Below are positions 103 through 19,606 of a DNA stretch of 40,826 nt, in pieces. This DNA comes from an uncultured Eubacteriales bacterium. Its GTDB lineage: Bacteria > Bacillota > Clostridia > Christensenellales > Christensenellaceae. Both the position numbers and the translations under genes were made by a program. Numbering within the stretch: the stretch's first letter is position 1; each line of letters starts with the position of its first letter. The notes beneath the pieces are model-generated. The model was given only the letters and a program-made list of their open reading frames with translations. It had not been told where the DNA came from and did no database searches. Location of the stretch: NCBI GenBank assembly GCA_900545085.1, contig UQXU01000008.1, positions 1 to 40,826 of the forward strand. Reading direction: 5' to 3'.

Positions 103-2883
103 TTGAAAGAACTATCGCAAAATCGCATTTTAGCGAACAAGACAGAAAAGCCTCAGCCAAAGAGGCAGCTGCACAAATATTTCTTTGAACGCGCTCAGTC
201 CGCCGGAGACAAAATCGCGCTCTATTCCGTCCGCAGCGGAAAAACAAGCAGCATGACATACGCTGCTCTGGCAGAGCTCGCGCTGAAATATGCCTCAGCA
301 TTGCGGAATAAAGGCGCTCGATGCGGCGGCCGCATAGCCGTGATGCTTCCGCGGTCATTCGAACAAATAGCGGCGGTCATAGGCGTGCTCGCGGCCGGAT
401 GCACATACGTTCCCATAAACGTATCCGCGCCCCGGCAGCGTTTCGACAGCATATGTCAGGATGCAGAAATAGAGTTCGCAATCACAGAAAAGGAAAGCGG
501 CCTGCACAGCAGCTCGGCTGCATTCGTGCATCCGCAGGACGCTCACGCAGCCCAGCCGGCAAATCTTATACTCGCCGACGAAACAACGCCGGCATATATT
601 ATTTTCACATCCGGCTCCTCCGGCGCTCCCAAGGGAGTCGTCATATCGCACGACGCCGCATGCAACACAATAGACGACGTAAACGAGAGATTCTCCGTGA
701 CGGATGCAGACGTCGCCATAGGAATATCTTCTTTAGAATTCGACCTGTCTGTTTATGACATATTCGGTCTTTTAAGCGTCGGCGGCAGCCTCGCCGTTTT
801 AGACGAAGCTCAAATCAAAGAGCCTTCCGCATGGTTGGATATACTCAGCAGCCTGAGAGTCACCGTCTGGAACAGCGTGCCCGCGCTTTTCTCCATGATG
901 CTCACGGCAAACGGACTCTCGCCCCTGCCTCTGAAAAAAGTAATGCTCTCCGGCGATTGGATAGACACCGACATCCCGGAGAGAACAAAAGCGGTCGCGA
1001 ACGGCGCGCATATAATCGCAATGGGCGGCGCAACCGAAGCTTCCATTTGGTCTAATTACTTTATTGCAGACGACGCTCTCCCTTCATGGCAGTCCATACC
1101 CTATGGCAAGCCCCTCGCCAATCAAATGTTTCGCGTCGTGGACGAGAACGGAGACGACTGCGACGACGAGGTTGAAGGCGAGCTTCTCATCGGCGGCAGA
1201 GGCGTAGCCATGGGGTACACTAATCCCGAGCTTACGCGAAAAAGCTTTTTTGAAAAAGACGGCGTTAGATGGTATCGCACCGGAGACGCCGGAAAATACC
1301 GCCAAGACGGCAATATAATCTTCTGCGGCAGAATAGACTCGCAGATGAAAATCAACGGATACCGCATAGAAGCGGGCGAAATCGAATCTGTCGCCGAACA
1401 GATGGACGGAGTGGAGAAGGCTCTCGCTTTGTCAGTGCAGTCCGGCACAGGTAAGCAGCTAAAATTAGGTATCAAAACAAAGCCCTGCGCAGCCGTTCCG
1501 AAATTGCAGCCCGCGCTCGAACCTGACGCGGAGACAGTCTGCTTCCGCAACAGAGAGCGCGAGCGCCAGGCCGTTATCGCAGAGCGATTCCTTGCTGATT
1601 TGATTATATCTAAACCCGTAATCTGCAAAGATATGGAGCTGCTCTTTCAAAGATGGGCGGAATGGCTGGAGCAGCGCAATGTAATCGAAATAGACGAAAA
1701 TGGTATTAAGCCGGGCGGGCGCATGAGTGAAGTGAAGAGCACGACGCCGCCCGGGGAAGACATCTTCGCGCAGGCGCTTTATCGCAGCATGGACTTGTTC
1801 CGCGGGATATTGTACGGAGAAAGGCAGCCCATTGAGCTTTTGAACGAGAAAACGCTCTCGCCTGAGGTTCTAACTGCGTCCGCCCCTGAAGCAAAGCATG
1901 TTATTGATTATATAAACACTATTTTGACAGCTTCAAACGCAAAAAACGCAGCCATTATCGACGCGCGTACCGGCGAGATGCTCTCCGCCCTGGCGAAAGA
2001 TTCACAGCTCCGCTTTACGGCTTTTGAACCGTCGTTGACCATGCAAGGCGCGTTGAGAGAAAAGTGCGGAGATTTATCCGTAAGCACAGCTCCGAATACC
2101 GCCGCCGTAAACACTATTCAAAAGGATTATTATCAGCAATTCGACGCTGTTATTATGCTGTACAGCCTGCATCGTTATAAACAGCCGGCGCGGGAAATAT
2201 CCTGGCTCTGCAATTTGCTCAGGCAGGGCGGAGTTTTTATCGTCGCGGAGCTGCCCGAGCTTCAGCCCTTCGCTCTTGTAACGTCAATGGTTTTGGAATA
2301 TGGTTTTCCCGATCTTCCCGACGGCCGAATTACGCCAATGCGCTCGGCTTTGGAATGGGCGGATATAATGCAGCAAGGCGGATGCTCCGACATACAAACA
2401 AAGCTGATTGACCGAGCTTACTCCTTCGTGCTACACGGCAAAAAATCAGCTTTCTCGCCTTCGTTTTCTGATATAGAAGCACATCTGAGCGCCAAGCTGG
2501 CGCAGCACATGATACCTTCCGAAATTTCAGCAATAAGAGAAATCCCCCTGACGAGCAACGGCAAAGTAGACAGAAAAACCGCCGCCGTATGGTTTGAAAG
2601 CTCCTCCGCAGCGATAAAAGGCAGCGCCCCCGAGAGCCTCGAGGAAAAAGAGCTTGCGGCAATCTGGGCTTCTTTCTTTAATACAGAACAAATCGGAACA
2701 GAAAACAGCTTCTTTGAGATGGGAGCGGACAGTCTCGCAGCGACTCGTCTCCTCGTAACTCTGCGCGAAAAATACGGAGTCGAGGTATCTATGCGCGAGC
2801 TGTTTGATAATGCGGAGCTCGGCCGTATGGCCGCTCTGATTCACGAGAAAAACAGCGTTGAAATGGAAGAAGGCGAGCTTTAA
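103..2883 (+). CDS. NRPS protein A-(MT-like/E)-PCP, cysteine-activating, lacking its own Cy domain
   Basis: Cytosolic NRPS protein of about 926 residues. The adenylation domain starts almost at the N-terminus (about 25-430) with FTSGSSGAPKG near 170 and FDLSVYDIFG near 215. By eye the pocket reads D-L-Y-N-M-S-M-I-W, a cysteine code. After the A8 motif (GYRIEAGE, near 410) a block of about 390 residues is inserted before A10 (NGKVDRK, near 820). This is the position and size of the methyltransferase-like epimerase domain of PchE and HMWP2. Its SAM-binding glycine motif is degraded (IIDARTG), which favours epimerase over methyltransferase. A carrier domain follows, with MGADSL near 878. There is no Cy domain; the unpaired Cy at the end of the 9090 protein probably supplies it. 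The start is uncertain: AAGGAG at 88-93 is well spaced for TTG at 103 but only 3 nt from GTG at 97. Confidence 0.9.
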   Translation: MKELSQNRILANKTEKPQPKRQLHKYFFERAQSAGDKIALYSVRSGKTSSMTYAALAELALKYASALRNKGARCGGRIAVMLPRSFEQIAAVIGVLAAGCTYVPINVSAPRQRFDSICQDAEIEFAITEKESGLHSSSAAFVHPQDAHAAQPANLILADETTPAYIIFTSGSSGAPKGVVISHDAACNTIDDVNERFSVTDADVAIGISSLEFDLSVYDIFGLLSVGGSLAVLDEAQIKEPSAWLDILSSLRVTVWNSVPALFSMMLTANGLSPLPLKKVMLSGDWIDTDIPERTKAVANGAHIIAMGGATEASIWSNYFIADDALPSWQSIPYGKPLANQMFRVVDENGDDCDDEVEGELLIGGRGVAMGYTNPELTRKSFFEKDGVRWYRTGDAGKYRQDGNIIFCGRIDSQMKINGYRIEAGEIESVAEQMDGVEKALALSVQSGTGKQLKLGIKTKPCAAVPKLQPALEPDAETVCFRNRERERQAVIAERFLADLIISKPVICKDMELLFQRWAEWLEQRNVIEIDENGIKPGGRMSEVKSTTPPGEDIFAQALYRSMDLFRGILYGERQPIELLNEKTLSPEVLTASAPEAKHVIDYINTILTASNAKNAAIIDARTGEMLSALAKDSQLRFTAFEPSLTMQGALREKCGDLSVSTAPNTAAVNTIQKDYYQQFDAVIMLYSLHRYKQPAREISWLCNLLRQGGVFIVAELPELQPFALVTSMVLEYGFPDLPDGRITPMRSALEWADIMQQGGCSDIQTKLIDRAYSFVLHGKKSAFSPSFSDIEAHLSAKLAQHMIPSEISAIREIPLTSNGKVDRKTAAVWFESSSAAIKGSAPESLEEKELAAIWASFFNTEQIGTENSFFEMGADSLAATRLLVTLREKYGVEVSMRELFDNAELGRMAALIHEKNSVEMEEGEL

Positions 2884-2910
2884 CCGACTTGTCGGTTAGT
2901 TTATTCTAAC
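2881..2910 (+). other. Intercistronic palindrome with an alternative hairpin
   Basis: TAACCGAC at 2881-2888 and GTCGGTTA at 2891-2898 form a perfect palindrome that includes the stop codon of the NRPS gene. The right arm overlaps a second possible hairpin, GTTAG 2895-2899 with CTAAC 2906-2910, that ends just before the GGAGG of the next gene. There is no T-run. It may affect mRNA stability or translation of the reductase gene. Confidence 0.35.
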
Positions 2911-2920
2911 GGAGGTATCT

Positions 2921-4012
2921 ATGATAGGAATATTAGGCGGATACGGCTCCATAGGCACACACTGCACTCGAGCCTCCGTCACTCTCTTTGACGACAAAAT
3001 CAGAATAGGCGGCAGAAATGCAAGCGCCGCCGATAAACTAATTGAGCTGTATCCCGGAAGGATAGAGTACGCTTATGCAGATATAAACGACCCTGCGAGC
3101 TTACGCGAATTCATGCACGGCACTCGGCTCATTATAAACTGCACCGCTCCCAGCTACTATACTTCGCGTAAAGTCGCAGAGCAGGCGGGGCGCAGTCACG
3201 CGCCGTACATAGACGCCGGCCTGCCGGAGAATTTTTTTGAATGGCAGTCAAGTTTCTCCCCCATGTCCGCGATGATATTCGGCGCGGGAAGCACCCCCGG
3301 CGTATCCGGTCTGTTTCTCCGGCACATTCTCAGCCTCAACCCCTGCTCGAACAGGCTGGATTACTATTACACCGCCTTCGGACGCCTGTCGTACGCCGCG
3401 GCCTACGACTATCTCTACGGCGTTTGCAATCGTAAGCAGGACGAACCGTTCTCGTGGAAAAACGGCGAACCGTGTTTTGACGTAATATCGCAAAAATCAG
3501 ATTTACGACTCCCGTTCATAGACGACAAACTAATCGCCCAGCCATTCTTTGATTCAGAAACAGCATACTGTGCCAAAATCGGCAGCCTGAAAGACGGTAA
3601 TTTCTATTGCGCCGCGGCAGAAAACAGAAATCTTAACAAAATGCGTCCTGTCTTTTCTCTCTTTCGGGAGAATCCTGAGATTGCGGCAAAACAGCTCTCG
3701 GAAATGACGGAGGACCTAACCGACCTTAGCTGTATACGGTACTACTGCGAGCTGGAGAACGCGGAAGGCAGAAAAAAAGTATACAGTCTGTATCATCCCG
3801 ATTCCGAAGAGCTGACAGGCACGACGGCGGCCGTCTGCGCAAAATATCTGAGCGCACAGATAGACGAACCGCCAAGAGCCATGCTCCCCGTTCAGCTTAA
3901 ACATCCTGATAAGATACTCTCTATCATGAATGAATTCTTCGGCGTAGGTTACCCGGACGAATTTGACGGCACTTTAGACTCTATGACAAATGAAGAATAC
4001 GGAGAACTATGA
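2921..4012 (+). CDS. Saccharopine-dehydrogenase-like NAD(P)-dependent reductase
   Basis: Predicted soluble oxidoreductase of 363 residues. The N-terminus is a Rossmann fold with the dinucleotide-binding glycines GILGGYGSIG at residues 3-12. YIDAGLPENFF and FGAGSTPGVSGL (about 96-130) match the saccharopine dehydrogenase NADP-binding family. ATG follows GGAGG with good spacing. The stop overlaps the next start (ATGA), so it is translationally coupled to the thiazolinyl imide reductase. Lying between NRPS genes, it probably modifies the carrier-bound chain, most simply by reducing a thiazoline or its hydrolysed imine. From memory, the enantio-pyochelin pathway uses a reductase unrelated to PchG (PchK) that may belong to this group; I could not check this. 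The family is fairly secure; the exact reaction is not. Confidence 0.8.
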   Translation: MIGILGGYGSIGTHCTRASVTLFDDKIRIGGRNASAADKLIELYPGRIEYAYADINDPASLREFMHGTRLIINCTAPSYYTSRKVAEQAGRSHAPYIDAGLPENFFEWQSSFSPMSAMIFGAGSTPGVSGLFLRHILSLNPCSNRLDYYYTAFGRLSYAAAYDYLYGVCNRKQDEPFSWKNGEPCFDVISQKSDLRLPFIDDKLIAQPFFDSETAYCAKIGSLKDGNFYCAAAENRNLNKMRPVFSLFRENPEIAAKQLSEMTEDLTDLSCIRYYCELENAEGRKKVYSLYHPDSEELTGTTAAVCAKYLSAQIDEPPRAMLPVQLKHPDKILSIMNEFFGVGYPDEFDGTLDSMTNEEYGEL

Positions 4013-5097
4013 CACAGAATAAAAAACTAAAGGTGATAGTCTGCGGCACGACCTTCGGGCAGTTTTACATGGAGGTTTTGCACAGGCACAGCGACGAATT
4101 TGAATTTATGGGCATAGTCGCAGGAGGAAGCGAACGCTCCCGAGTTTGTTCTAAAACTTACGGCGTGCCGCTCTACCGCTCCATAGACGAGCTGCCCGAA
4201 AAGCCCGACATAGCCTGCGTCATCATCCGCTCAGGCGCTCTGGGCGGCCGAGGCACGGATATAGCCGAAAGCCTGATGAACATGGGCGTACACATTATTC
4301 AAGAACAGCCGATACACAAAACGGATATGAAAAGCTGCATTCAGAGCGCTTTGAAAAACAAAGTAAACTTTATGACAGGAGACCTGTACGTACATCTTCC
4401 CGAGGTGAAAAAGCTTATAAGCGGTGTAAAAACAGCTATGCAGCTTCAAAAGCCGGCGTATATTCACATAACTACCTGCCCTCAGGTCTCGTATCCCATG
4501 GTAGATATAATGGACAAAATGTTCTCTCCCCTGCCGAAGTGGAGCTTCGATACTATATCTGAAGCCAACGGTCCTTTTCAAATCGCGTCCGGCAGGCTCG
4601 GCGACGTCCCGCTTTACGTAACATACAACAACCAGATAGATCCCGCAGATCCTGACAACTATATGCACATGCTTCATCGCTTTACTATAGGCTTTGAAGG
4701 CGGCAGATTTGAGCTGCCGGATACGCACGGTCCTCTCATGTGGATGCCTCGTCTTCATATTCCAACACAAGGCTACAACGCAGGTATATACAACGCAGTT
4801 TTTCCCGAACACATGAAAGAATATACTTCAAATGTCGTCGGAGCTTACAATCGCATAACATACAGCGATATGGTTCTGAAAACATGGGTCGACGCCGTGT
4901 ACGGCGACTTGTCCGAAATGAAGGATATGATACTCGGCCGCAAAAACGGACGCGCCAGAGCGCAGCGCGAAATACTCTGCACTCAAAGATGGCACGAATT
5001 CACACAGACTTTCGGCTTTGCTTCACTGAAAAAAGGCTGCTCGCATCAACCGCTCGACGCCAACATTGTCCTTGGCGCTGTAGATACGGAGGAATAA
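4009..5097 (+). CDS. Thiazolinyl imide reductase (PchG/Irp3/YbtU type)
   Basis: Soluble NADPH-dependent reductase of 362 residues in the Gfo/Idh/MocA superfamily. The family reduces a carrier-bound thiazoline C=N to a thiazolidine during pyochelin and yersiniabactin assembly. Visible hallmarks are the N-terminal VIVCGTTFGQFY nucleotide-binding segment (about 9-20), the VHIIQEQPIH segment near 95-104 in place of the usual Gfo/Idh EKP, and DLYVHLPEV near 125. The ATG overlaps the preceding stop and is preceded by GGAG. The next NRPS gene begins 6 nt after its stop, so it sits inside a tight operon. The presence of this enzyme is the best single indication that at least one ring in the product is a thiazolidine. 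Confidence in the family is high; which ring is reduced is unknown. Confidence 0.9.
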   Translation: MTQNKKLKVIVCGTTFGQFYMEVLHRHSDEFEFMGIVAGGSERSRVCSKTYGVPLYRSIDELPEKPDIACVIIRSGALGGRGTDIAESLMNMGVHIIQEQPIHKTDMKSCIQSALKNKVNFMTGDLYVHLPEVKKLISGVKTAMQLQKPAYIHITTCPQVSYPMVDIMDKMFSPLPKWSFDTISEANGPFQIASGRLGDVPLYVTYNNQIDPADPDNYMHMLHRFTIGFEGGRFELPDTHGPLMWMPRLHIPTQGYNAGIYNAVFPEHMKEYTSNVVGAYNRITYSDMVLKTWVDAVYGDLSEMKDMILGRKNGRARAQREILCTQRWHEFTQTFGFASLKKGCSHQPLDANIVLGAVDTEE

Positions 5098-5103: not shown

Positions 5104-8100
5104 ATGAATCACAACGAAATAACCGGTATGCTCGATAAATTGGAAATAAACGGAATAAGACTTTGGCAGGAGGACGGAAAGCTGAAATATTCCGCTCCGC
5201 AGGGGGCGCTGACATCAGAAATACGCTCTGTTCTGAAACAGCAAAAAGCCGACATAATAGACTTTTTAAAAAAAGACGCAGAAGAGGTCGCGGTTGTTCA
5301 CGACGAGGACAACAGATATCAGCCATTCCCCCTGACCGACATACAGTCCGCCTATCTCATCGGCAGAAACGAAGCGTTCGCTCTGAGCGGAGTCGCCTGC
5401 CATATTTATATGGAATTTCATTACGAAAATCTCGAGCCGCAAAGGGCTGAAGACATATGGAATCTGATGATACAGCGTCACGATTCTCTCCGGACCTGCT
5501 TCCGCGCCGACGGAACTCAGGTCGTGCTTCCAAGCGTCCAACGTCTGCACATTGATTATGCGGACGTATCCGAAAAAGGCGAAAACGCTAAATCGGAGCG
5601 CATAGATACTGTTCGCGCAGAGCTGGGTCACTGCATACACGACGCAAACAATCCGCCGCTTATGGCCTTGGCTATAACCAAAACAGATTGCGACGCCGTC
5701 CTTCATCTCTCGATGGATTTTATAATGGCGGACTGGACGAGCATCCGTCTGCTGCTGGCGGAATTTGAAGGCATGTACTTCTACGGGGACGGCGTTCTTC
5801 CCGAATTTGAAGTCAGCTTTAGAGATTATCTCACAGCGGAAGCGCTCCTAAAAGAAAAATCAGGCTTTTACAAGGACAAAAAATATTGGCTGGACAAAAT
5901 AGACGCTGTGCCCGCCGCGCCCGATATAGCTGTCAAGCGCTCGTCCGCCGCCGATTCCAAGCTTTTCAAGCGGCTTTATCTGAATCTGGAGCCTGAACGC
6001 TGGGACAAGCTGAAGAGCTTCGCCGCCAAGTTCGGTCTCACTCCATCGTCCGCCGTCCTCGCTTCATATGCGCAGGTTCTGCATTGGTGGAGCAGCACAG
6101 ATAAATTTTCACTCAATCTGACAGTGCTCAACCGCTTCCCGCTCCATGAGCAAGTTAACAGCTTGATAGGGGACTTCACCTCGGTCAGCCTTCTGGAATG
6201 CGACTTCACCGATTCCGCATCGTTCGCCCAGAGCGCCAGAAAGCTGAACGCCCGCCTGTTTGACGATTTAGATCATAGGCTTTATTCCGGCGTTATGGTC
6301 ATGCGCGAAATAGCAAGACGCAAGGGACGCGAAGCCGCTCTCATGCCGTTCGTCTACACCAGCTCAATCGGCGTAATACAAGAAGACCCTTCCCGCCCCA
6401 TGGTAGGACGTTTCGACGGAGAAGGCATAAGCCAAACTCCTCAGGTCTATCTCGATTGTCAGGCTATGGACGGCAGCTTCGGTCTGCAAGTCAACTGGGA
6501 CTACCGCGACGGCATATTCCACGAGAACGTAATAGAAGACATGTTCGCCGCTTTTAAAACGCTGCTGGAGATGCTCTCCGACAGCGCAGAAATATGGTCT
6601 TCGGATATACCGCCTATTCTCCCAAAATATCAAGCGGAAATGATAGCGCAGAGCAACAGCACCAATACGCAGCTTCCCGGAGGACTTCTCCACAGCAGGC
6701 TGCTGGACAGCATTCGGCGCACTCCCGACAAGCTCGCCGCCGCTGACGAAAGCAAATCTTTCACCTACGGCGAATTAGGACTCTTAGCCTCCGCCGTAAA
6801 GCTGCAGCTGATAAACACGGGCTGCTCCAAGGGCGATACTGTCGGAATAGTAATGCCCAAGAGCGTGTACCAAATATCGAGCGCAGTGGGTATTCTGGAT
6901 GCGCAGTGCGTTTACGTACCCATAGACGTACATCAGGCGCCTTTGAGGCGCGAAAAAATTCTCACCCGGTGCGGAATATCTGTAATAATCACACTCCGTG
7001 CATATGAGGATATGTTTAACAGCGACGCATATAAACTTATATTCGCAGATGAGCTGACTCCCTCTCCCTCTCTGTCTCTTACAGGAGAGGGAGACGAAAG
7101 CGCTCTCGCATATATAATTTATACCTCCGGCTCCACAGGAACGCCTAAAGGCGTAGCCATAAGACACAGCGCAGCAGTAAACACCATCGAGGATATAAAC
7201 TCTCGTTTTGACGTCACGGCAGACGACGTCGTCCTCGGTCTATCGCAGCTGAATTTCGATCTCTCCGTATACGATATATTCGGCGTTCTCGGCGTCGGCG
7301 GCAGCGTCATATATCCCTCCGCAGCAAAATACGCCGACCCTTCTCACTGGATGGAACTTGTAAAAAAATATAAAATCACGCTTTGGAACAGCGTTCCCGC
7401 TTTCATGCAGATGTTCACAGACTACATAGAAAGCAGCAGCGAAAAAGTTCTTCCGCATATGCGTCTTGTAATGATGTCCGGCGACTGGATACCCGTCACT
7501 CTGCCCGAAAGAATATGGGCGCTCAACCCCGACGTTCTCACCGTCAGCCTCGGCGGCGCCACGGAGGCCTCCATATGGTCTATATACCACATATGCCGCG
7601 AGATTAAGCGCGAATGGAACAGCATCCCCTACGGCAAGCCGCTTTCAAACCAGGGCTACCATGTTTTGGACGGCAAGCTCCGCGAACGTCCCTTCTGGGT
7701 TCAGGGAGATCTGTACATCACGGGCGTCGGTCTGGCAGATTGCTACTATAAACAGGATGAATTGACCTCCGACGCATTCATAACCGTGAACGGAACAAGA
7801 ATGTACAAGACAGGCGATACAGGCCGATGGATGTCTGACGGCGAAATTGAATTCATGGGCCGAAATGACGGTCAATTGAAAATCCACGGTCACAGAATCG
7901 AGCTGGGCGAGATAGACAACTGCATAATACAGACCGGAGCTGTTCAATGCTGCACTCTCGCGATAGGAACTCCGACAGGAGAAAAAACTCTCGTCAGCTT
8001 TTACTGTGCAGAATCAGAATCGGACGCATCCGCAATAAAGGAAAAGCTGAAGGACAGCCTGCCCGTTTATATGATACCGTCCATAATCAAATACAAAGAA

Positions 8101-12000: not shown

Positions 12001-15000
12001 TGACCGAAATAAACATGAGCGGCGGCAGCATAGCGGACAGCGCAGCGGCAATACAGCGCAGGCTTCTCTCCGACCTGACGCACAGCAGCGTGGACGCCTT
12101 GAGCTTCCTGCGTCAGCTCGCCCGCGTAAAAGGCGAGCAGCAACGCTACCCTTACGTATTTACCTGCGCCCTCGACACCCGCAAATACACAGGAGAGCTG
12201 AACATAGCATACACATGCGCTCAGACGCCTCAGGTTCTCATAGACTGCCAGGTTATAGAATACGATGACGTTCTTCATGTCTCATGGGACACTGTCGACG
12301 AAGCTTTTCTTCCCGGGATTATAGACGACATGTTCGACGCTATGCGCCGCCTTGTAGTCTCTCTCGCCGATTCTCCCGATTTCGTGAACAATGTTGTCTT
12401 CGACCTGCGCCCGCAGTCTCAGCGCAAAACATTTGAATCGGCAAACGACACGGCGAAGGAGCTTCCCGCTATGCTTCTCACGCAGAATCTGCAAAATATA
12501 GCGCGCAGCGCGCCGGACTCTCCCGCAGTAATCGCCTGCGACAAAACGCTCACTTACTCTCAGCTTTGGAACCGCGCTATGCAATTCGCCGGGCTTTGCA
12601 TTCAATCAGGCGCTGAGCCTGACGACAAAATTATAATCGCACTTGACCGTACATCCGACATGATTGCCGCCGTGGCAGGCGTGCTGCTTTCGGGCGCAGT
12701 ATACGTGCCCGTTTCCAAGCATCAGCCTGCGTCCAGAATAGCGCAAATCAGGGATTCTGCAAATGCAAAGTTCATGATAACAGACAGCGAGCCGATTATA
12801 TCGGATATAACCGTCCTGCAGGCAAACAACGCGGACAAAATAAATCCGAGTTTGATTTCTCTGCCCGCTGTCAGACCGGACGCATTGGCGTATATTATCT
12901 TCACATCCGGCTCGACAGGCATACCGAAAGGCGTAGCAATAACACATGAAAGCGCAATGAATACCATCGCGGATGTATCCGCCCGTCTGGGCATAGACAG
13001 CTCGGACAGAGCGATATGCGTATCTGAGCTGAACTTTGATCTTTCCGTCTACGACATTTTTGGAATGATGAACGCAGGCGGCTGCATCATACTTGCTAAT
13101 GAGGCTCAGCGCATAGACATGAGATGCATATACGAGCTTTGCTCAGAGCACGGCGCAACCTTCTGGAACTCCGTCCCGGCTATATTCGACATGTTTCTGG
13201 AGAAAGCGCAGAACAGCTCAGGCAAACTTAAATTGCGCAGCGTGATACTTTCCGGCGACTGGATTCCTCTCACTATTCCCGCCAGAATGAAGCGCGCCAT
13301 TCCCGGAGCGTCGCTCACCTCTATGGGCGGCGCAACCGAAGCCTCAATTTGGTCGAATTATTATCACGTATCAGACGTGAAGCCCGATTGGAATTCCATC
13401 CCTTACGGCTTCCCTCTGTCCAATCAGCAATTTTACATTCTCAACGCCCTCGGCAGGCCCTGCCCCGCTCTCGTCCCGGGCAGGCTTCACATCGCAGGCA
13501 AGGGTCTCGCTCAGGAATACATCGGCAGCAAGGAGCAGACTGACAAAGCCTTTTACGTCCACCCCGATCTCGGCGTCAGACTCTACGACACAGGTGATTA
13601 CGGCAAATATTTCCGAGACGGCTGCATAGAGTTCCTTGGCAGGAAGGACAATCAGGTTAAAATCAACGGCTTTAGAATAGAAACAGGCGAGATACAGAGC
13701 GCGCTTTCAGCTATAGGCTTTAGCGAGTCCGTCGTCGCAGTAGACGGCAATCGCACAGAAATGAAAAAGCTGATTGCGTTCGTCAAAACAGATTCTAATT
13801 CCGGCGAGCTGGACGAATATAAAAAGAAATTAAGCGATTACATCCCCGCTTACATGATCCCCGACGTAATTTTCGGCGTAGAAGAATTCCCCGTAACAGC
13901 GAACGGCAAGCGCGATGTAAAAGCGCTCATGGAGCTTTACTCCAAATTCTCACGCCCCGCCTCCGAAACTATGCCTGCAGACTCAGACAACCCAATAATC
14001 AAAATAATCAGTGAAATTATAGGCACCGTTCCGCAGAGCGGCATGAGCTTTTATGAGCTGGGTATGGCGTCTGTCGATCTTATAAAACTGGGAAATAGGC
14101 TGGAGCTTGTTTACGGCACTCGCCCGTCCATAAGCGAAATAATGTCTTACGGCTCTGTTCAGGAGCTTTTGGATTATTACGCTGACATAAGCGCCGAAAG
14201 CGCCGCCTCTGCTCATGCAGATTTGAAGACTTTCTCCTTCGAGGTTGAAAAGCTGTATCAAACCTGCCGTATGAGAGGCATTAATCTCAAGCGCACCGAT
14301 TCCTCGCTTAAATTCACCGCACCTGCCGGCGCAATGACGGACGAATTGAAAGCACAGCTCAAGCGCCGCAAAGCCGAGCTTATGGATTATCTCAGCGAAA
14401 TTGAAGCTCATCCCGAGGGCAACGGCAGGTACATGCCGTTCATGCTTACGCCAATTCAACAGTCATACGTAACAGGCCGATCTAACGATTTTGAACTCGG
14501 CGGTTTCGGGACGCACTATTTTATAGAAATAAGCTGCGCAGAGCTGGACGTAAAGAAATTCGAAGAGGCGCTAAACTATACAATACAATGCCATGACGTG
14601 CTGAGAACTGTGGTCTTTGACGATGGTACGCAGATGGTTCTGACAGATGTTCCGCGCTATTCCGTCGCTGTAAAAGACATAAGCCTTGAGGAAGCCGCCG
14701 AGCTGAAGGAACAGTGGAAGTATCGCAAATACAATCTCAACACATATCCTATGTTCGACGCGGAAGTTATAAATACTCCGGACGGTAAAACGCGGATATT
14801 CTTTAGCTTTGACTGCCTGATACTCGACGGCGCCAGCTCGCACCAGATGCTTGAAGATCTTTTCGCCGCTTATTCCGGCAGGCCCAAGGCTGCGCCAAAC
14901 TACTCATTCTGCCAATATATCGCAGACAGTTCAAAAACAGAACGAAAGCAGTATGCAAAGGATAAGGCCTTCTGGGAAAAACGCGCAGCTCATCTCCCGC

Positions 15001-15677
15001 CCGCCCCTGCGTTCAGATACAAACAGCCGCTGAGCGAAATAAAAGAGCCTCATTTTAAGCGCATGGCACACTCTTTCGACGAGGCGCAGTCGGATGCATT
15101 TTCCAAAGCAGTCGCCAAAACAGGCTGCACCGCATCGGCATTCGCCGCAGCCGCATATATGAAAGTGCTCTCTGAATGGAGCGGCAGCAGCGATATAACC
15201 GTAAATATGACTATGTTTAACCGAATGCCCGTTCACGATTCTGTAATGGATATTCTCGGAGATTTCACCGGAACTACATTCATATCCTACAGCAGTGCAT
15301 CTGAAAATTTAGAATATGCCGTGTCGGACGTTCAGTCACAGATATGGAACGCGATAGACCATCGCTCGTTCAGCGGAGTCGAAATACTCAAGCTGCTGAC
15401 GAACGAGAGCAGCCGTTGGAGCGCGATAATGCCCGTTGTGTTTACCAGTATGTTTTACGACAGCGGCGCAAATCTATTCATGCTTCCGCCCGGCTTTGAA
15501 ATTTCAGACGCGCTCAGCGCGACTCCGCAGGTCGTTTTAGATCATCAGATTTATAATCGCGGCGGAAATTTAACCATCGTCTGGGATTTCGTACAGGAGG
15601 CATTCGACGAAAACGAAGTTCGCACGCACTTCGATAAGTACCTCGGCATTCTCCAAAATATAATAAACGCAAACTAA
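9090..15677 (+). CDS. Loading NRPS protein FAAL-ACP-Cy-A(Cys)-PCP-[TubC-like]-Cy
   Basis: A 2195-residue protein that should start the pathway. Residues 1-580 are a fatty-acyl-AMP ligase: QYTSGSTGKPKG near 172, SWLPYYHDMGM, GAPNFAYDL, YGQAEATLVVSG and GRIKDIIIINGENFYP. FAALs adenylate a fatty acid and pass it to a carrier, here the ACP with YGISSIM near 633. Cy1 (690-1120) is divergent: DMMIADSYG ends the signature with Gly instead of Ser, and DDFTQ replaces GDFTS. The adenylation domain (1130-1620) has FTSGSTGIPKG near 1270 and a pocket read as D-L-Y-N-I-S-M-I-W, so cysteine. The carrier motif is LGMASVDL near 1657. A TubC-like docking segment (1710-1760) and a complete second Cy (1775-2195, signature DCLILDGAS) follow, with no A or PCP after it. 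A GGGG ribosome site precedes the ATG by 6 nt. Confidence 0.93.
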   Translation: MKNDENNLSTLIDYLQYYADKFGDKPFISSCALDLTLKTRSFSEVFDTVTAFSRWLLHSGHETGEKALLIFADPADSLYASLACMDAGITIIPVAPPVSGSASELQKLEAVISDSGANFILTSQSIKPMVQAFISASATAASLPVICEAERAGFPSSGKIARSTDIMLLQYTSGSTGKPKGIAITMDAMVLHLSLLKDMVLANSESVFLSWLPYYHDMGMIAMMFLPVFCGCRCILIPPQLFMADPSVWLRAISAFKADITGAPNFAYDLSLKSLHSMSGEELSRLDFSSLRRLFSGAEAINLTTLVQFCDEAKKYGLNRSSLLFAYGQAEATLVVSGYHANQPISWIKLDREALKHQRVKVIEEGLFNDLTTEHLADSDVYTYMPGNGPAYGAGHELLILKPGDAESLRAYEVGEICLIGPCVAEGYYKNPAETAKHFSKTDDGRRLLRTGDLGFLNSNGELFITGRIKDIIIINGENFYPEDLEQTAYNSDERAIPLRTAAFAETLGATERPVIVQEISDDAFPHAQEIADAISRSLLNIHGIGNIKVVLTAENTLPKTDSGKIQRSKAKQLSEQGHYENVFDYAKHEEVSASVNSAAELTDVILTLTAASAGVPTDGMDADRTFLQYGISSIMLVRLSEKISNALSLAVPPKTLMKHDSPRALGEYLFTVKDTAAGRTEYTRMRVISEAERFEPFELSPVQQAYLDGRNPELPLGGVSCYYFMEADIPALSKERFSQALQEMMTRHDNLHAVLTPEGKLLVLREWENPLIIYPLSSQGDAEAHLQSIREEMREQVFGTGRFLFDVRLSELTAGGYRVHFGIDMMIADSYGILLLQDEMRKLYKGETLPLIKNILKPAKARPSDADEAYWSERAESFPKAPALPLDIKFFGNSSGRINRRAFSINQDIWKNCKAFLKRIGCSPSSVLFALYSEVLSAWGGDDKFAVMTTVVDRDDDAMCTVDDFTQLSLTEINMSGGSIADSAAAIQRRLLSDLTHSSVDALSFLRQLARVKGEQQRYPYVFTCALDTRKYTGELNIAYTCAQTPQVLIDCQVIEYDDVLHVSWDTVDEAFLPGIIDDMFDAMRRLVVSLADSPDFVNNVVFDLRPQSQRKTFESANDTAKELPAMLLTQNLQNIARSAPDSPAVIACDKTLTYSQLWNRAMQFAGLCIQSGAEPDDKIIIALDRTSDMIAAVAGVLLSGAVYVPVSKHQPASRIAQIRDSANAKFMITDSEPIISDITVLQANNADKINPSLISLPAVRPDALAYIIFTSGSTGIPKGVAITHESAMNTIADVSARLGIDSSDRAICVSELNFDLSVYDIFGMMNAGGCIILANEAQRIDMRCIYELCSEHGATFWNSVPAIFDMFLEKAQNSSGKLKLRSVILSGDWIPLTIPARMKRAIPGASLTSMGGATEASIWSNYYHVSDVKPDWNSIPYGFPLSNQQFYILNALGRPCPALVPGRLHIAGKGLAQEYIGSKEQTDKAFYVHPDLGVRLYDTGDYGKYFRDGCIEFLGRKDNQVKINGFRIETGEIQSALSAIGFSESVVAVDGNRTEMKKLIAFVKTDSNSGELDEYKKKLSDYIPAYMIPDVIFGVEEFPVTANGKRDVKALMELYSKFSRPASETMPADSDNPIIKIISEIIGTVPQSGMSFYELGMASVDLIKLGNRLELVYGTRPSISEIMSYGSVQELLDYYADISAESAASAHADLKTFSFEVEKLYQTCRMRGINLKRTDSSLKFTAPAGAMTDELKAQLKRRKAELMDYLSEIEAHPEGNGRYMPFMLTPIQQSYVTGRSNDFELGGFGTHYFIEISCAELDVKKFEEALNYTIQCHDVLRTVVFDDGTQMVLTDVPRYSVAVKDISLEEAAELKEQWKYRKYNLNTYPMFDAEVINTPDGKTRIFFSFDCLILDGASSHQMLEDLFAAYSGRPKAAPNYSFCQYIADSSKTERKQYAKDKAFWEKRAAHLPPAPAFRYKQPLSEIKEPHFKRMAHSFDEAQSDAFSKAVAKTGCTASAFAAAAYMKVLSEWSGSSDITVNMTMFNRMPVHDSVMDILGDFTGTTFISYSSASENLEYAVSDVQSQIWNAIDHRSFSGVEILKLLTNESSRWSAIMPVVFTSMFYDSGANLFMLPPGFEISDALSATPQVVLDHQIYNRGGNLTIVWDFVQEAFDENEVRTHFDKYLGILQNIINAN

Positions 15678-15693: not shown

Positions 15694-16431
15694 ATGACAG
15701 TAAAAAGCAGATACTTTCCGTTCGGTCTCAACTCTGAGAAGTTCCACGTGTTTTGCTTTCATCACGCGGGCGGGTCTGCACTCACTTACAGAGCCTGGGC
15801 TGTCAGAGACTTTGACAATGTCGAATTTGTCCCGGTGGAAACGCCGGGCTTCGGCACGCTGTCAGACATAAACATCCCGGGCAGTGTAGACGAAGCTGCG
15901 CAGTCCATTGCGGCAGAGATAATCAGAATAACCCCAAATGAAAATTTCGCACTTTACGGGCATAGCCTCGGCGCAGCAATGGCTTTTAAAACAGCATATA
16001 TACTGGAACATAATTACGGCTCAAAGCCCAAATTGCTCATAGTGGCCGGCAGGCACGCTCCGCATATCGAAATACAGGAAGGCTACAATTCCTCCATGGA
16101 CGACAGCAAGCTTAAAGAAGAGCTCGTGCGCATGAGCGGAACGCCGAAGGAAATACTTGAAGACAATGAATTTCTTCAATACATACTCCCTAAAATCAAG
16201 GCTTCATATAAACTGGCTGAATCCTTTACGTATAGCGGCGAAAAGCTGAGCGTTCCCATAGTCGCGCATTGCGGTACAGATGACTACGGCGCAGATTTCG
16301 ATAAAATGCTGGAGTGGTGCAAGGTGACTGAAGCCGACGGATTCTTACTCAAAGAATATCGAGGCGGTCATTTCTTTATGCACAGCATAGAGGATAAGTA
16401 TCCTGCAGATCTGGCCAATATCGTAATATGA
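15694..16431 (+). CDS. Type II thioesterase (editing), Ser nucleophile
   Basis: Stand-alone alpha/beta-hydrolase of 245 residues, the usual size for type II thioesterases such as GrsT and PchC. These remove stalled or wrong acyl groups from carrier domains. The N-terminus has the family block FCFHHAGGSALTY (about 20-32). The nucleophile elbow is YGHSLGAAMAF near 89-99, with a possible catalytic Asp in CGTDDYG and the His in RGGHFFM near the C-terminus, so the triad looks complete. GAGGTG lies 5 nt before the ATG, and the gene starts 16 nt after the loading NRPS. It is probably the housekeeping editing enzyme of this assembly line, in contrast to the Cys-type paralogue at 18208. Confidence 0.9.
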   Translation: MTVKSRYFPFGLNSEKFHVFCFHHAGGSALTYRAWAVRDFDNVEFVPVETPGFGTLSDINIPGSVDEAAQSIAAEIIRITPNENFALYGHSLGAAMAFKTAYILEHNYGSKPKLLIVAGRHAPHIEIQEGYNSSMDDSKLKEELVRMSGTPKEILEDNEFLQYILPKIKASYKLAESFTYSGEKLSVPIVAHCGTDDYGADFDKMLEWCKVTEADGFLLKEYRGGHFFMHSIEDKYPADLANIVI

Positions 16432-16588
16432 CCGCGATGTGCTCCCTGCGCTTCTCAAAACGGCAGGCTGCAAGTCTTTTGCGCTGCGCGTCCGCTTTTA
16501 AATCCCCCATGAAAACCCAAGAGGCTTGCGCCCGTTTGCGCCCGTTATTGAATATAAATATCATAAATATTTAAAGAAAGGAATCCAA
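16432..16588 (+). other. 157-nt intercistronic gap
   Basis: No gene is seen here. It holds an exact tandem 10-bp repeat (annotated separately) and an AT-rich stretch just before the ribosome site of the PCP-R gene. I found no convincing -35/-10 pair or intrinsic terminator, so the PCP-R gene may be read through from upstream. Confidence 0.4.
16526..16545 (+). repeat. Tandem 10-bp direct repeat
   Basis: TTGCGCCCGT occurs twice in exact tandem at 16526-16535 and 16536-16545, about 45 nt upstream of the PCP-R start. The function is unknown; it could be a replication slip or a factor-binding site. Confidence 0.6.
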
Positions 16589-18070
16589 ATGCAGGAAACA
16601 AAAAATTATCAGCCCTCCAACGCTAAAGAAAAAGAGCTTCTGCGAATATGGAAGGACGTCCTCGGCAGAGACGACATTGCCATTAACGACGACTTCTTTA
16701 AAATCGGCGGAAACTCGCTCTATGCTATCAAAATATTCGGCAGACTCTCCTCTGTATTCGACATATCCATGAACGACCTGTTTGCCAGCACTACCATAGA
16801 AAAACTCGCTCAGCATATCTCCTTCCGCAAAGGCGGGCGTACAGAAGAGCTGAACGCGCTCAAATCAGCGGCAAAAATGATGGACAGCTTCAAAATGCCG
16901 GAGCGCGACCAAAAGCTTCTCGACGCATACGCCGCTCGAAGCTCATCCCCTGCGCTGAAAAAGCAGCCCGAGCCTAAGTGTGTATTCATTACAGGAGCGT
17001 GCGGATATTTCGGCGCTAATTATCTCGGAAACATGCTGCTGGAGAGCGGCTCTGATGCAGTTTGCGTAATTCGCAGCGCAGATGACAGCGCAGCTTTTGA
17101 CAGACTCAAAAATGTGCTGGAGCACTACTTCCCCGGCGAAAATCTCCTTGAGCGATTCAACGGCAGAGTCACCGTCTATTCCGGAGATCTGTCGAAGGAA
17201 CACCTCGATCTTTCAGACGAGAAATATCTCTATCTCACCGAGAACACCGACTGCATCCTTCACTGCGCAGGTTTGGTGAAGCACTTCGGCGCATGGAGCG
17301 AATTTGAAAAAGCAAACGTAACCGTAACGGAGAAGATTATCTCTCTGGCTAAACAAGGCCGAGAGAAGCGCCTGCTTTTCATATCTACAATGGGCACGGC
17401 ATACACCTCGGACAGATTCGAGAGCAAGCTCCCTTTCACCGAATACGATCTTCCCTCAGGCGAGATCGACGACAACTTCTACCTTCGTTCCAAGACAATG
17501 GCCGAACAGTTGGTGAATGCAGCAGCAAAAGACGGACTCGACGCAAAGATATTCCGTCTGGGATATTTGACTCAATCTGAGAAAACGGGCATATTCCAAA
17601 TCAACGCTAAAGAAAACACCTTCTTCCGATTGCTCGGCGCAATTGAAAAAATCGGCGTTATAGCCGATTCTAAAGCTGAAATATTTGACTTCACTTTTAT
17701 CGACAGCGCGACGAGAGCCGTCCGGCTCCTGGGCGATACGACAGACGACTGGAACGTATATCATATTTTCAACCCAAATCAGCTTTCCGTCCTGCGCATA
17801 GCTCAGCTAATGAACGCCTGCGGAGAAAATATAAAGATAACCACAGCGGACGACTTCACAGAATACATGAACGAAAACGCAGATAAATATCCCGAAGAGC
17901 TGACCGACATTTTGCTCGCGACATACGTACTCGAACCCGAGATAGATCAGACTCTTGTCCTAAAGGTCAGATGCACGCGCACAACTTCCGCCCTCGCTCA
18001 GCTCGGCTTCAAATGGACGCCCGTGAACGAAAAGCACATGTCCGATGTGCTCAAAATACTTAAAAGCTGA
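16589..18070 (+). CDS. Free-standing PCP-thioester reductase (R) protein
   Basis: A 493-residue, two-domain protein. Residues 1-85 are a peptidyl carrier with the phosphopantetheine site FKIGGNSLYAI near 45-55. From about 130 to the end it is an NRPS-type thioester reductase of the extended SDR family: NADPH motif FITGACGYFGANYL near 132-145 and a catalytic YxxxK as YLRSK near 298-302. Such domains release the chain as an aldehyde or alcohol by NADPH reduction. No condensation domain is present, so how the chain reaches this carrier is unclear; the R domain may instead act in trans on the carrier of the 5104 protein. I place the start at 16589, where AAAGGA precedes ATG by 6 nt, rather than the in-frame ATG at 16526, which has no ribosome site and would add 21 unrelated residues. 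Confidence 0.88.
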   Translation: MQETKNYQPSNAKEKELLRIWKDVLGRDDIAINDDFFKIGGNSLYAIKIFGRLSSVFDISMNDLFASTTIEKLAQHISFRKGGRTEELNALKSAAKMMDSFKMPERDQKLLDAYAARSSSPALKKQPEPKCVFITGACGYFGANYLGNMLLESGSDAVCVIRSADDSAAFDRLKNVLEHYFPGENLLERFNGRVTVYSGDLSKEHLDLSDEKYLYLTENTDCILHCAGLVKHFGAWSEFEKANVTVTEKIISLAKQGREKRLLFISTMGTAYTSDRFESKLPFTEYDLPSGEIDDNFYLRSKTMAEQLVNAAAKDGLDAKIFRLGYLTQSEKTGIFQINAKENTFFRLLGAIEKIGVIADSKAEIFDFTFIDSATRAVRLLGDTTDDWNVYHIFNPNQLSVLRIAQLMNACGENIKITTADDFTEYMNENADKYPEELTDILLATYVLEPEIDQTLVLKVRCTRTTSALAQLGFKWTPVNEKHMSDVLKILKS

Positions 18071-18207: not shown

Positions 18208-18930
18208 ATGTCAATATGGATAAATCACGAAACTATACGCGATAATGCAGAAACCAATTTGCTCTGCTTCCCACATGCCGGCGGCAGCAGCACGTTTTTC
18301 GCGCAATGGTTTCAGTTCTTCCCCGATACCGTGAGCGTATACCCCGTACAATATCCCGCCCGCGACAACCGCATGAGCGAGCCTATGCCCCCTACTATAC
18401 TCGAGCTTGCCGAACAGATAGCCGACGGATGCGCCGAGCTGTTCGACCGCCCTTTTGCATTTCTCGGACATTGCTTCGGCAATGTGATTGCATACGAGAC
18501 CGCTCTCGCCGTAAAGCGTAAATTCGGAAAAGAACCCGCCCTGCTCGCGGTTTCAGGCTCTGTCTCCCCCGGCGATTTCAAATTGCGAGCCACCAAAAAC
18601 CTAACAGACAAACAATTTATGAAGTTTTACAACTTCCCGATGGAACAGATTATGATTTACAAAGAGCTGAGCGGTATACTTATGCCTATGATACGAGGAG
18701 ATTACGTATTGTGTGAAAAATACAGATTCAAACCCTCCGACATTCAGCTGACCTGCCCCATTGTTGCAATGTACGGCAAGGAAGACCACAATCTCCCCAC
18801 GGACGGCGTTAAAAACTGGGCTGATTACACCTCTCCGGCTAATTTCGAGCTGATAGCGTTTGACGGGGATCATTTCTATTTTGAACAGAACAAAGAGGCT
18901 ATCTCTCAGCTCATAAGCGACAGGTTGTAA
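18208..18930 (+). CDS. Type II thioesterase family protein with Cys nucleophile
   Basis: An alpha/beta-hydrolase of 240 residues in the type II thioesterase family. It has FPHAGGSSTFFAQW (about 17-30) and the family block YPVQYPARDNRM. The nucleophile elbow reads FLGHCFGNVIAYE: residue 89 is Cys (TGC at 18472-18474) where Ser is usual. The acid residue is likely in YGKEDHN and the base in FDGDHFYF, so the rest of the triad is kept. Ser-to-Cys exchange is known in some NRPS thioesterases that make strained or lactam products, and it usually favours acyl transfer over hydrolysis. This protein could therefore move the chain, for instance to the PCP-R carrier, instead of editing. That role is inference. 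AGGAG precedes the ATG; the Sfp-type gene follows 1 nt after its stop. Confidence 0.88.
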   Translation: MSIWINHETIRDNAETNLLCFPHAGGSSTFFAQWFQFFPDTVSVYPVQYPARDNRMSEPMPPTILELAEQIADGCAELFDRPFAFLGHCFGNVIAYETALAVKRKFGKEPALLAVSGSVSPGDFKLRATKNLTDKQFMKFYNFPMEQIMIYKELSGILMPMIRGDYVLCEKYRFKPSDIQLTCPIVAMYGKEDHNLPTDGVKNWADYTSPANFELIAFDGDHFYFEQNKEAISQLISDRL

Positions 18931-18931
18931 A

Positions 18932-19606
18932 ATGAACGGAGCGACTGTAATGCTTCTGGAGGACGCCGAACAAATATCCGACGGCTGCCTTAGCTATATA
19001 ATCTCCTCTCTCCCTCCGCGGCGCAGAGAAAAAGCAGAAAACTACTTCTTTCGACGAGACAGAGCCAACTGCGCCGCCGCATATGCTCTTATGCGGTATA
19101 TGTTTATGCGTTTTCTCGGACTAAATATTAACACCGATTGGCAAATAGGAAGAAACGGAAAACCGCAGCTCTCCCCTTCTTACCCCCATCTTCATTTCAA
19201 CATATCTCATTGCAGCAGAGCCGTCGCCTGCGCGCTGCACAGCTCTGAAATAGGCGTTGACGTTCAGGATTGCATTTCGGATATCTCCGGCATTTCCTCA
19301 CTCGTGCTCTGCGAAAGAGAGCTGAAGCTGTTGAGCGCCTGCGGCGTACCCGAAGACATTTTTTCTCGACTTTGGAGCATAAAAGAAAGCTGCGTAAAAT
19401 GCCTCGGAGACGGAATTTCCGACAACCTAAGAAAATTGGATTTTTCCGACTTGCCTTCCCGCGGCGAAAAATACAACCTGCAATTTTATACTCAGCGTCT
19501 CAGCGGGATATATCTCTCGGTCTGCTCCCCGCTCCTTCCCCGAATCAATCTAATCAGATTATCGCCGCCGAGCTTTCTCAAGCTTATAAACGTCGGAAAA
19601 CAATAA
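18932..19606 (+). CDS. 4'-phosphopantetheinyl transferase (Sfp type)
   Basis: Cytosolic enzyme of up to 224 residues that moves phosphopantetheine from CoA to the carrier serines. The cluster contains at least five carriers: one ACP, three PCPs and the PCP of the reductase protein. The Sfp-family signatures are all present: FNISHCSRAVACAL near 88-101, IGVDVQD near 106-112 with the Mg-binding acid, and LWSIKESCVKCLGDG near 147-161 (W-x2-KE-x3-K). It is the last gene of the cluster and starts 1 nt after the thioesterase stop. ATG 18950 is an alternative start, with GGAG 8 nt upstream, and gives an N-terminus closer to the usual length. A dedicated transferase supports the cluster being self-contained. 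Confidence 0.9.
   Translation: MNGATVMLLEDAEQISDGCLSYIISSLPPRRREKAENYFFRRDRANCAAAYALMRYMFMRFLGLNINTDWQIGRNGKPQLSPSYPHLHFNISHCSRAVACALHSSEIGVDVQDCISDISGISSLVLCERELKLLSACGVPEDIFSRLWSIKESCVKCLGDGISDNLRKLDFSDLPSRGEKYNLQFYTQRLSGIYLSVCSPLLPRINLIRLSPPSFLKLINVGKQ

Follow-up and report, generated by a model that had tools for sequence, protein, structure and literature searches.

A fatty acyl-AMP ligase-primed, three-cysteine nonribosomal peptide synthetase cluster from an uncultured Eubacteriales bacterium, a candidate source of a lipid-tailed thiazoline metallophore

Introduction

Pyochelin and yersiniabactin are assembled by the PchEFG and HMWP1/2-Irp3 lines, which start from salicylate activated by an aryl ligase and finish with an active terminal thioesterase (TE). 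A polyketide synthase (PKS) builds the alkyl-salicyl cap in the micacocidin and massiliachelin lines, and ulbactins F and G carry an aryl cap. Chemists and genome-mining rules usually recognise thiazoline siderophores by a phenol or catechol cap. The cluster described here is a nonribosomal peptide synthetase (NRPS) cluster primed by a fatty acyl-AMP ligase (FAAL), in whose product a lipid would sit where these related iron-scavenging molecules carry the metal-gripping phenol cap. It lies on contig UQXU01000008.1 (assembly GCA_900545085.1) of an uncultured Eubacteriales bacterium (Christensenellaceae), of which positions 1 to 40,826 were analysed (40,826 nucleotides, the window).

Sorangibactin contains tandem thiazolidines, and its cluster has both an Irp3 homologue and the saccharopine dehydrogenase (SDH)-type SrbE; sorangibactin A was no longer made once SrbE/F/G had been deleted, and SrbE is described there as indispensable, with no function assigned to it (PMC10127202). 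Paired fused permease-ATPase proteins are a known layout for EqbK/L and YbtP/Q (PMC3672683), and ulbactins F and G of Brevibacillus correspond to MIBiG BGC0002472 (PMC11316579). A metallophore survey (eLife 2026) finds nonribosomal metallophores through chelator-synthesis genes or special condensation domains (PMC12971057).

Results

Nine co-directional genes on the plus strand (o1 to o9) spanned positions 103 to 19606 of the window, as delimited by open reading frames (ORFs) and Pfam and NCBIfam scans (Table 1). They encode a FAAL-acyl carrier protein (ACP)-heterocyclisation (Cy)-adenylation (A)-peptidyl carrier protein (PCP)-TubC-Cy protein, an A-epimerase (E)-PCP protein, a TubC-Cy-A-PCP protein with a TE remnant, two reductases, two stand-alone TEs, a PCP-thioester reductase (Red) protein and a 4'-phosphopantetheinyl transferase (PPTase). 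Pfam and NCBIfam scans counted three domains of the Condensation/Cy type and three A domains for amino acids, apart from the separate FAAL. The three Cy domains, three cysteine-type A domains, PchE-like insert and Irp3-type reductase named in an earlier sequence-only reading of the window were all recovered (Pfam/NCBIfam, motif reading, PDB), and the domains, codes and motifs are legible in the sequence itself. The TubC docking domains, second reductase, dead TE, PCP-Red and two stand-alone TEs were absent from that reading. The cluster is very probably an NRPS line for an acyl-Cys3 heterocycle, i.e., an acyl-capped tris-thiazoline/thiazolidine.

Fatty-acyl priming by FAAL-ACP, already proposed from the sequence, was supported by PDB matches and by NCBIfam family ranking. 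The best PDB matches of the FAAL were 7r7e-g (labelled polyketide synthase) and 3kxw, followed by FAALs of the FadD23, 3pbk, FadD32 and FadD28 type. FAAL and long-chain fatty-acid ligase models ranked on top with NCBIfam, all under their own cut-offs. Across the starters of the window and six relatives the top models were FAAL, long-chain fatty-acid ligase or the FAAL-bearing PRK05691, and TIGR02275 was not among the 25 best families of each (L023 and L043 in full). As a control, TIGR02275 led in all four aryl-type starters of sister clusters sharing the core block described below (370-560 bits). The starters of L001, L023 and L043 were considered as aryl ligases because of their low identity to the window's FAAL; family scores point to FAAL instead.

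The FAAL-ACP adjoins Cy1 directly, with nothing between. Ketosynthase (KS), acyltransferase (AT) and ketoreductase (KR) domains were absent from o5 (Pfam), and a KS-AT query had no match anywhere in the window. Homologues of o5 with the same domain order included P0088, P0089, P0103-P0106, P0108, P0109 and others. Among the best 120 of 4389 homologues, 35 had a FAAL-like domain by our own cut-off, and 11 of these 35 had the window's order at ≥35% identity. Identity of o5 to P0089 was 76-84% per domain, and 68% in the first carrier domain.

The chorismate-binding family PF00425 was sought in 20 genomes, 12 of FAAL type and 8 comparators. The comparators were L009, L012, L020, L033, L046 and L048, with a 2,3-dihydroxybenzoate (DHB)-type ligase (L033 and L046 by similarity only), and L013 and L056, with no ligase in the stretch. 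A chorismate-binding enzyme lay within 20 kb of the cluster in none of the 12 FAAL-type genomes (the contigs of L049 and L070 end near the cluster). PF00425 was absent altogether from the complete genome of Clostridiaceae M8S5. In the L003 genome one was encoded on the cluster's contig, at a distance of about 31 kb from the cluster's type II TE. Six of the 8 comparators had such an enzyme in the fetched stretch or at most about 5.3 kb from it (for L020, in the adjoining L054); L046 and L048 had none nearby. A Pfam scan of 30 window ORFs showed no PKS and no chorismate-using gene, the window having only about 100 bases upstream of the cluster. The aryl or salicylate starter of the pyochelin/yersiniabactin family was not found in the window, and a FAAL stands in its place.

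The A-domain codes were DLY/N/MS/MIW (o1), DLY/N/MS/LIW (o4) and DLY/N/IS/MIW (o5). By their code positions all three are of the cysteine type, in line with the sequence-only reading. The Cy cores were DFIMADWTS, DMMIADSYG and DCLILDGAS; core motifs were used for the window only, 45 of 188 places in relatives being unread. PchE was the one PDB match to span o1 in a single stretch among the best 60 of 231, and the o1 insert alone matched the PchE epimerase with 29.5 bits. The column of PchE H1204 was kept in the insert and that of E1234 was Leu, with a Glu adjacent (for the roles of both residues, see PMC8807600). A methyltransferase (MT)-like domain of this kind predicts a D-thiazoline (PMC6604713). 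An active methyltransferase in o1 was not favoured, its S-adenosylmethionine-motif region being degenerate, as in PchE.

The reductase o3 scored 248.8 bits with TIGR01761 (cut-off 188.8), and had Irp3/YbtU as PDB match; 87 homologues, counting the window's own sequence, were recovered at E ≤ 0.001. The reductase o2 had no PDB sequence match. Its predicted model (pLDDT 85.7) had carboxyspermidine dehydrogenase, lysine dehydrogenase and saccharopine reductase as nearest folds. Since all of these carry out C=N chemistry, the natural guess from the model is that o2 reduces a second ring.

The PCP and TE of o4 had no Pfam match; the PCP was read by eye and the TE by sequence and alignment. When the o4 C-terminus was aligned with 22 relatives, all 22 kept a G[YH][SC] nucleophile motif and a lid. 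The window's o4 has AHG at that motif, with Gly as nucleophile, and lacks most lid columns; the invariant His column is retained. These 22 rows are a subset of the 58 relatives whose C-termini were cut out; a motif search over the cut C-termini had missed five relatives (L031, L032, L036, L043 and L051). The nucleophile of all 58 was Ser (30) or Cys (28) by pairwise comparison; the window's Gly rests on alignments, its nucleophile column being uncovered by the short pairwise local match. Foldseek assigned the region a thioesterase fold, as supporting evidence only, the PCP-TE model being weak (pLDDT 66.7). On these alignments the terminal TE of o4 is dead, having lost nucleophile and lid.

The PCP-Red o7 scored 179.5 bits with TIGR01746, below the cut-off of 213.35, and its nucleotide-binding and YxxxK motifs were intact. 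Its Red part had no comparable match in the other searched loci, except two at 26-27%. The nucleophile of o8 was Cys and that of the 12 other o8-type places Ser. TE places of the o6 type numbered 28 in the searched set, a figure that includes the window's own and counts some twice where stretches overlap. Because the dead cis-TE sits near the PCP-Red and the Cys-nucleophile TE, chain release was probably reassigned, perhaps to an aldehyde. The acyl chain with three cysteine-derived rings predicted by the sequence-only reading was borne out in its acyl and heterocyclisation modules; the dead terminal TE and the PCP-Red, both missed there, change the end of the product.

Alignment A1 (14 rows) comprised 13 of the 87 Irp3 homologues and a copy identical to the window's, and its search gave 70 loci in public genomes, only loci with one of two peptide patterns being detectable. 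A core block (A-MT/E upstream, SDH next to Irp3, Cy-A downstream) was complete in 52 of the 70. The SDH adjoined Irp3 in 61 (66 had room), A-MT lay upstream in 60 and Cy downstream in 62. The block was common to FAAL-primed and aryl-primed siderophore-like clusters. A starter ligase was visible in 20 stretches and in none of the other 50: 12 were FAAL-like (six from Fibrobacter, five of those short pieces) and 8 DHB/salicylate-like (L054 being the tail of L020's). Further FAAL clusters came to light in extended stretches from the L055, L058, L049, L070, L068, L067, L024 and L009 genomes (Ruminococcus, a Bacillota metagenome-assembled genome (MAG), Butyrivibrio, Pseudobutyrivibrio, Chryseobacterium, Ruminiclostridium).

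Two arrangements were seen. FAAL was followed by KS-AT before Cy in Pelosinus, Paenibacillus arenosi, Cohnella, Clostridium beijerinckii, Ruminiclostridium and rumen Firmicutes, by Pfam in L071 and L077 only (KS-AT, no KR) and by KS-AT similarity in the others. The second arrangement, FAAL leading straight into Cy without any KS-AT match, was that of the window; gene order showed it also in Clostridiaceae M8S5 (fused) and in Peptostreptococcaceae and Fibrobacter L043 (separate genes). Fetched stretches that had it were L095 (fused), L097 and L099 (both as separate genes). In an Irp3 tree built quickly from 85 rows, the window joined P0002 and P0003, then a starred group of 23 rows, some long-branched, that held Clostridiaceae M8S5, a Peptostreptococcaceae MAG, Halothermothrix, Fibrobacter, a Lachnospiraceae MAG and Ruminiclostridium L009. 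The FAAL+KS groups fell outside it. By sequence comparison the cluster belongs to a wider FAAL-primed branch of Clostridia, Negativicutes, Bacilli, Fibrobacter and Bacteroidota.

Several further loci were observed. In Chryseobacterium vrystaatense (L081 11056-14946), a FAAL-acyl-CoA-dehydrogenase-ACP protein was followed by KS-dehydratase-KR-ACP and a further KS protein, with no AT there by Pfam. Sporomusa KB1 had an aryl ligase (L012 18954-20414) and Pelosinus a FAAL+KS (L002 16751-18472), a starter swap between near-relative Irp3 cassettes. An O-acetylhomoserine/cysteine synthase gene, possibly a dedicated cysteine supply, lay beside rumen FAAL+KS clusters (L077 13692-15011, L075 3192-4496, L078 1778-3091). 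A further FAAL+KS cluster in Ruminiclostridium sufflavum (L100 1654-19901) had the SDH and no Irp3 match in 20 kb. A census of the order of Ruminococcus flavefaciens (394 genomes from a larger group) gave 26 genomes with a match at E ≤ 0.001; the strong match (3.4e-33) was the centre genome alone, split over two frames. The Irp3 homologue of R. flavefaciens FD-1 (L067 3263-4032) was split between two frames.

Transport genes were surveyed in 15 FAAL surroundings (L071-L081, L095, L097, L099, L100) with the Pelosinus fused ATP-binding cassette (ABC) pair as query. At least one fused permease-ATPase protein was present in 11 of the 15 and two together in 9 (L071, L073-L076, L079, L095, L097, L099; some second members were cut by the stretch end). 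L078 had a single one at a contig edge, L080 had one and a short reading frame, and L072, L077 (contig edge), L081 and L100 showed none. The KS-less L095, L097 and L099 each had two, and two of these three also had a double-ATPase protein. Among single-half matches in the PDB, the first Pelosinus protein scored best with a chain of entry 6p6i (YbtPQ), at 287.7 bits against 262.7 for the next, and the second M8S5 protein with YbtQ, at 275.5 bits against 272.2 for MsbA, the next. Some FAAL surroundings also carried AraC-like regulators, MATE exporters or a double-ATPase protein.

Table 1. Genes and domains of the cluster and the adjoining flank (window positions)
Gene	Product and domains	Position	Strand	Basis
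o1	A(Cys)-E-PCP: A core ~181-1425; PchE-like MT-fold epimerase insert ~1774-2466; PCP 2650-2841	103..2883	+	Pfam/NCBIfam
o2	Saccharopine-dehydrogenase-type reductase	2921..4012	+	PF03435
o3	Irp3/PchG-type thiazolinyl imine reductase	4009..5097	+	TIGR01761 above cut-off; PDB Irp3
o4	TubC_N (5119-5271)-Cy (5329-6585)-A(Cys) (6709-8157)-PCP (~8191-8433)-dead TE (~8518-9072)	5104..9075	+	Pfam except PCP, TE
o5	FAAL (9111-10829)-ACP (10902-11099)-Cy1 (11160-12434)-A(Cys) (12495-13910)-PCP (~13977-14189)-TubC_N (14244-14399)-Cy2 (14415-15668)	9090..15677	+	Pfam/NCBIfam
o6	Type II thioesterase, GHSLG	15694..16431	+	PF00975
o7	Stand-alone PCP-Red (thioester reductase), TGACGYFG and YLRSK	16589..18070	+	PF00550, PF07993
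o8	Second thioesterase, Cys nucleophile, GHCFG	18208..18930	+	PF00975
o9	4'-Phosphopantetheinyl transferase, closing the cluster	18932..19606	+	PF01648, PF22624
	Flank, membership doubtful: DUF6612 lipoprotein, ABC_transp_aux (Gld-type) protein, ABC-2 permease, ABC ATPase	19684..23949	-	Pfam

The TTG start of o1 at 103, also the start given in the sequence-only reading, was preferred over GTG 97, with AAGGAG upstream of the TTG, and for o7 the ATG at 16589 is likelier than the TTG at 16526, where the ORF opens. Spacing between o1 and o6 was -4 to 37 bases; the gap was 94 bases before o7 (157 from ATG 16589) and 137 before o8. Close copies occurred elsewhere for Irp3 (100%; P0001, 55 member sequences) and for the FAAL protein (98%; P0088, 92 members), and their occurrence in other data argues against an assembly artefact. 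The host is probably a Clostridia bacterium: among the 120 M29 homologues listed (61-99% identical), 13 carried an organism name, which was Clostridia bacterium for 12 and Ruminococcaceae/Oscillospiraceae for one. No tRNA (ARAGORN) was found in the window, nor anything above threshold with Rfam. A stable hairpin with a T-box-like TGGAACC stretch lies at 25-62, just upstream of o1, and the window start cuts any longer leader. A T-box or other riboswitch 5' of o1 was rejected, since an Rfam search of 1-400 found nothing relevant, even at E 5, and the fold was unremarkable (z -1.69).

The flanking ABC genes are convergent to the cluster, and their products did not match the relatives' fused ABC proteins; this Gld-type system is possibly an exporter of the product, or unrelated. 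An MntP-type manganese efflux pump (24874-25434) lies less than 6 kb from the cluster. A Y-family polymerase lies beside an HTH-S24 (LexA/UmuD-like) protein (28865-30698, minus strand), a pair of SOS-mutagenesis type. A BMP/PnrA-type cassette (30864-37723) comprises an ATPase, two permeases and two substrate-binding proteins; a weak ATPase match within it was the sole signal of the ABC query in the window.

Discussion

The following scheme is predicted in its acyl substrate and chain length, protein order, rings reduced, release route and metal binding. The FAAL would adenylate a fatty acid and load it on the ACP of o5, and Cy1 would join the acyl group to Cys1 and cyclise it, leaving a 2-alkyl-thiazoline on PCP1. 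Cy2, at the C-terminus of o5, would hand the chain to o1, whose A domain would supply Cys2 and whose PchE-like domain would epimerise the new ring. The acidic C-terminus of o1 would then dock on the TubC_N of o4, and Cy3-A3-PCP3 would add the third ring. The reductases o3 and o2 would reduce one or two thiazolines to thiazolidines. With the terminal TE dead, the chain would leave through o7, as an aldehyde or alcohol, or through the Cys-thioesterase o8; o6 would edit, and o9 would activate the carrier domains.

A metallophore function of the FAAL-primed branch is likely. For the window's own product a lipophilic metallophore is favoured with moderate confidence, by analogy, because the cluster descends from clusters carrying siderophore-like transporters; a lipid-tailed aldehyde as the product is held with less confidence. 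A bolder reading, given a probability of about one in three, is that a widespread branch of anaerobe-rich bacteria makes phenol-free thiazoline metallophores in which a fatty-acyl starter replaces the aryl acid, either as a beta-keto-acyl cap (FAAL and KS-AT without KR) or as a plain acyl cap (FAAL alone). The window's lineage would in addition have killed the TE and gained the PCP-Red, so as to release a three-ring aldehyde with a lipid tail, which might serve a metal softer than ferric iron (Cu, Zn, Ni).

Several observations weigh against the favoured explanation, an acyl-capped line to a lipophilic metallophore. No siderophore-like transporter, AraC regulator or chelator gene was present in the window, which covers 21 kb downstream and about 100 bases upstream of the cluster, and a plain acyl group or C-terminal aldehyde offers no phenolate or carboxylate donors as in yersiniabactin. 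The fused ABC proteins of relatives had the general exporters MsbA, HepA and CydD as best NCBIfam models, all below cut-off; the PDB lead of YbtPQ was narrow (25 and 3 bits over the next half-transporter), and full-length eukaryotic P-glycoproteins scored higher over two stretches. The Cy1 core of o5 ends in G where S is usual, and a stand-alone PCP-Red has no evident route for receiving the chain. Besides L001, L023 and Fibrobacter, the starred group joined by the window's Irp3 contains L009, which has an aryl ligase, so that the group mixes starters. In addition, identity between the window's FAAL and those of L001, L023 and L043 is no more than 23-28%, and FAAL priming may accordingly have more than one origin. 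Of the metallophore assignment in the sequence-only reading, the kinship to thiazoline siderophores stands; the function itself is drawn from relatives, the window contributing neither transporter, regulator nor chelator gene and the acyl group no phenolate oxygen.

The same line could make a lipo-thiazoline aldehyde that is no metallophore (a signal, enzyme inhibitor or antibacterial), a siderophore line having been repurposed by replacing its hydrolytic end with a PCP-Red. The dead cis-TE with PCP-Red was seen only here among the searched loci, and the missing siderophore-like transporter in 21 kb downstream and the phenolate-free acyl cap point the same way; the siderophore-like core block and branch, the fused ABC pairs of KS-less FAAL relatives and the mere 100 or so bases of upstream DNA in the window make this alternative rather doubtful. 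A version of the favoured explanation, not exclusive of it, has the FAAL load a 3-hydroxy- or 3-oxo-acyl group whose oxygen, near the first thiazoline nitrogen, replaces the phenolate in an aliphatic N,O-donor metallophore. Many relatives have KS-AT between FAAL and Cy1, and in L071 and L077, the two scanned with Pfam, the lack of a KR would leave a beta-keto group; the hydroxyl beside the acyl-thiazoline of cyanochelin B is also a proposed iron ligand (PMC12628792). The window itself has no KS and the FAAL substrate is unreadable from its sequence, and this version is entertained tentatively.

A salicylate- or phenol-capped siderophore, with the FAAL-like ligase activating an aryl acid, would share its core block with aryl-primed clusters. 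It is highly improbable, as the fatty-acid ligase and FAAL models lead here, versus the DHB/salicylate model for true aryl ligases, and as no chorismate-using enzyme lay within 20 kb of any of the 12 FAAL-type clusters. Decay into a non-functional cluster would account for the dead TE and the altered Cy1 core; it is improbable given nine intact frames, most of them tightly spaced with ribosome-binding-site-like sequences, other motifs that read intact, and the conservation of o5 against P0089.

If the products are metallophores, they would constitute a lipid-anchored metal route in gut, rumen and soil bacteria. Where detection relies on chelator genes or special condensation domains, the FAAL-primed branch may escape genome mining. 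What stands in for the phenolate would then be testable in isolates such as Clostridium beijerinckii HUN142, Pelosinus fermentans JBW45 and Butyrivibrio hungatei XBD2006, and the core block offers a test of the saccharopine-type reductase, unassigned in sorangibactin (PMC10127202). Searches of open-access PMC yielded no FAAL-direct-to-Cy tris-thiazoline and no published product for the FAAL-primed branch. The statement that no characterised Clostridia product is known with this logic holds to that extent; the cluster is not a one-off, having FAAL-primed relatives in at least three phyla.

The six Brevibacillus loci L011, L013, L015, L016, L018 and L021 share the SDH-Irp3-Cy-A order of the window, no starter ligase is visible in their stretches, and a link to ulbactin is a candidate only. 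Equibactin and the C. kluyveri and C. difficile RT023 clusters resemble the window as Firmicute thiazoline siderophore lines with a saccharopine-type EqbM and an Irp3 homologue, EqbF (PMC3672683, PMC6814731). These lines further resemble it in a TE with Ser changed to Ala and in the fused permease-ATPases EqbK/L; unlike the window, they require salicylate and have a single A domain and an intact type II TE, and the available text mentions no PCP-Red. Sorangibactin, coelibactin and mupirochelin share an Irp3 homologue, a saccharopine-type SrbE/MchE and thiazolidines with the window, but have an aryl-oxazole/oxazoline cap, methyltransferases and a P450, and the cis TE of sorangibactin is active with a Cys nucleophile (PMC10127202, PMC10080011).

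The statement in the sequence-only reading that thiazoline siderophores start from salicylate was too broad, since the micacocidin and massiliachelin lines have FAAL and PKS and cyanochelin B has an acyl-thiazoline; unusual here is the passage from FAAL-ACP to Cy, with no PKS and no aryl cap. Micacocidin and massiliachelin agree with the window in the FAAL-ACP start, MT-like epimerase and thiazolinyl imide reductase, and differ by KS-AT-KR after the FAAL, the window having neither PKS nor aryl ring (PMC6604713, PMC10291242). Cyanochelin B is likewise a FAAL-primed siderophore with an acylated thiazoline and a thioester reductase (TD) domain, but it is cyanobacterial and has one thiazoline ring, PKS modules and beta-hydroxyaspartate chelators (PMC12628792). 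The pyochelin and yersiniabactin lines share with the window the Cys-Cy-A modules, an A domain with an MT-like epimerase insert (PchE, PMC8807600) and a trans-acting thiazolinyl imine reductase; the window has, unlike them, a FAAL start, three A domains, a saccharopine-type second reductase, a dead TE and a PCP-Red. Because both the aryl starter and the active terminal TE are lacking in the window, the cluster is not filed as a pyochelin/yersiniabactin-type siderophore line, though the workings of the two are alike.

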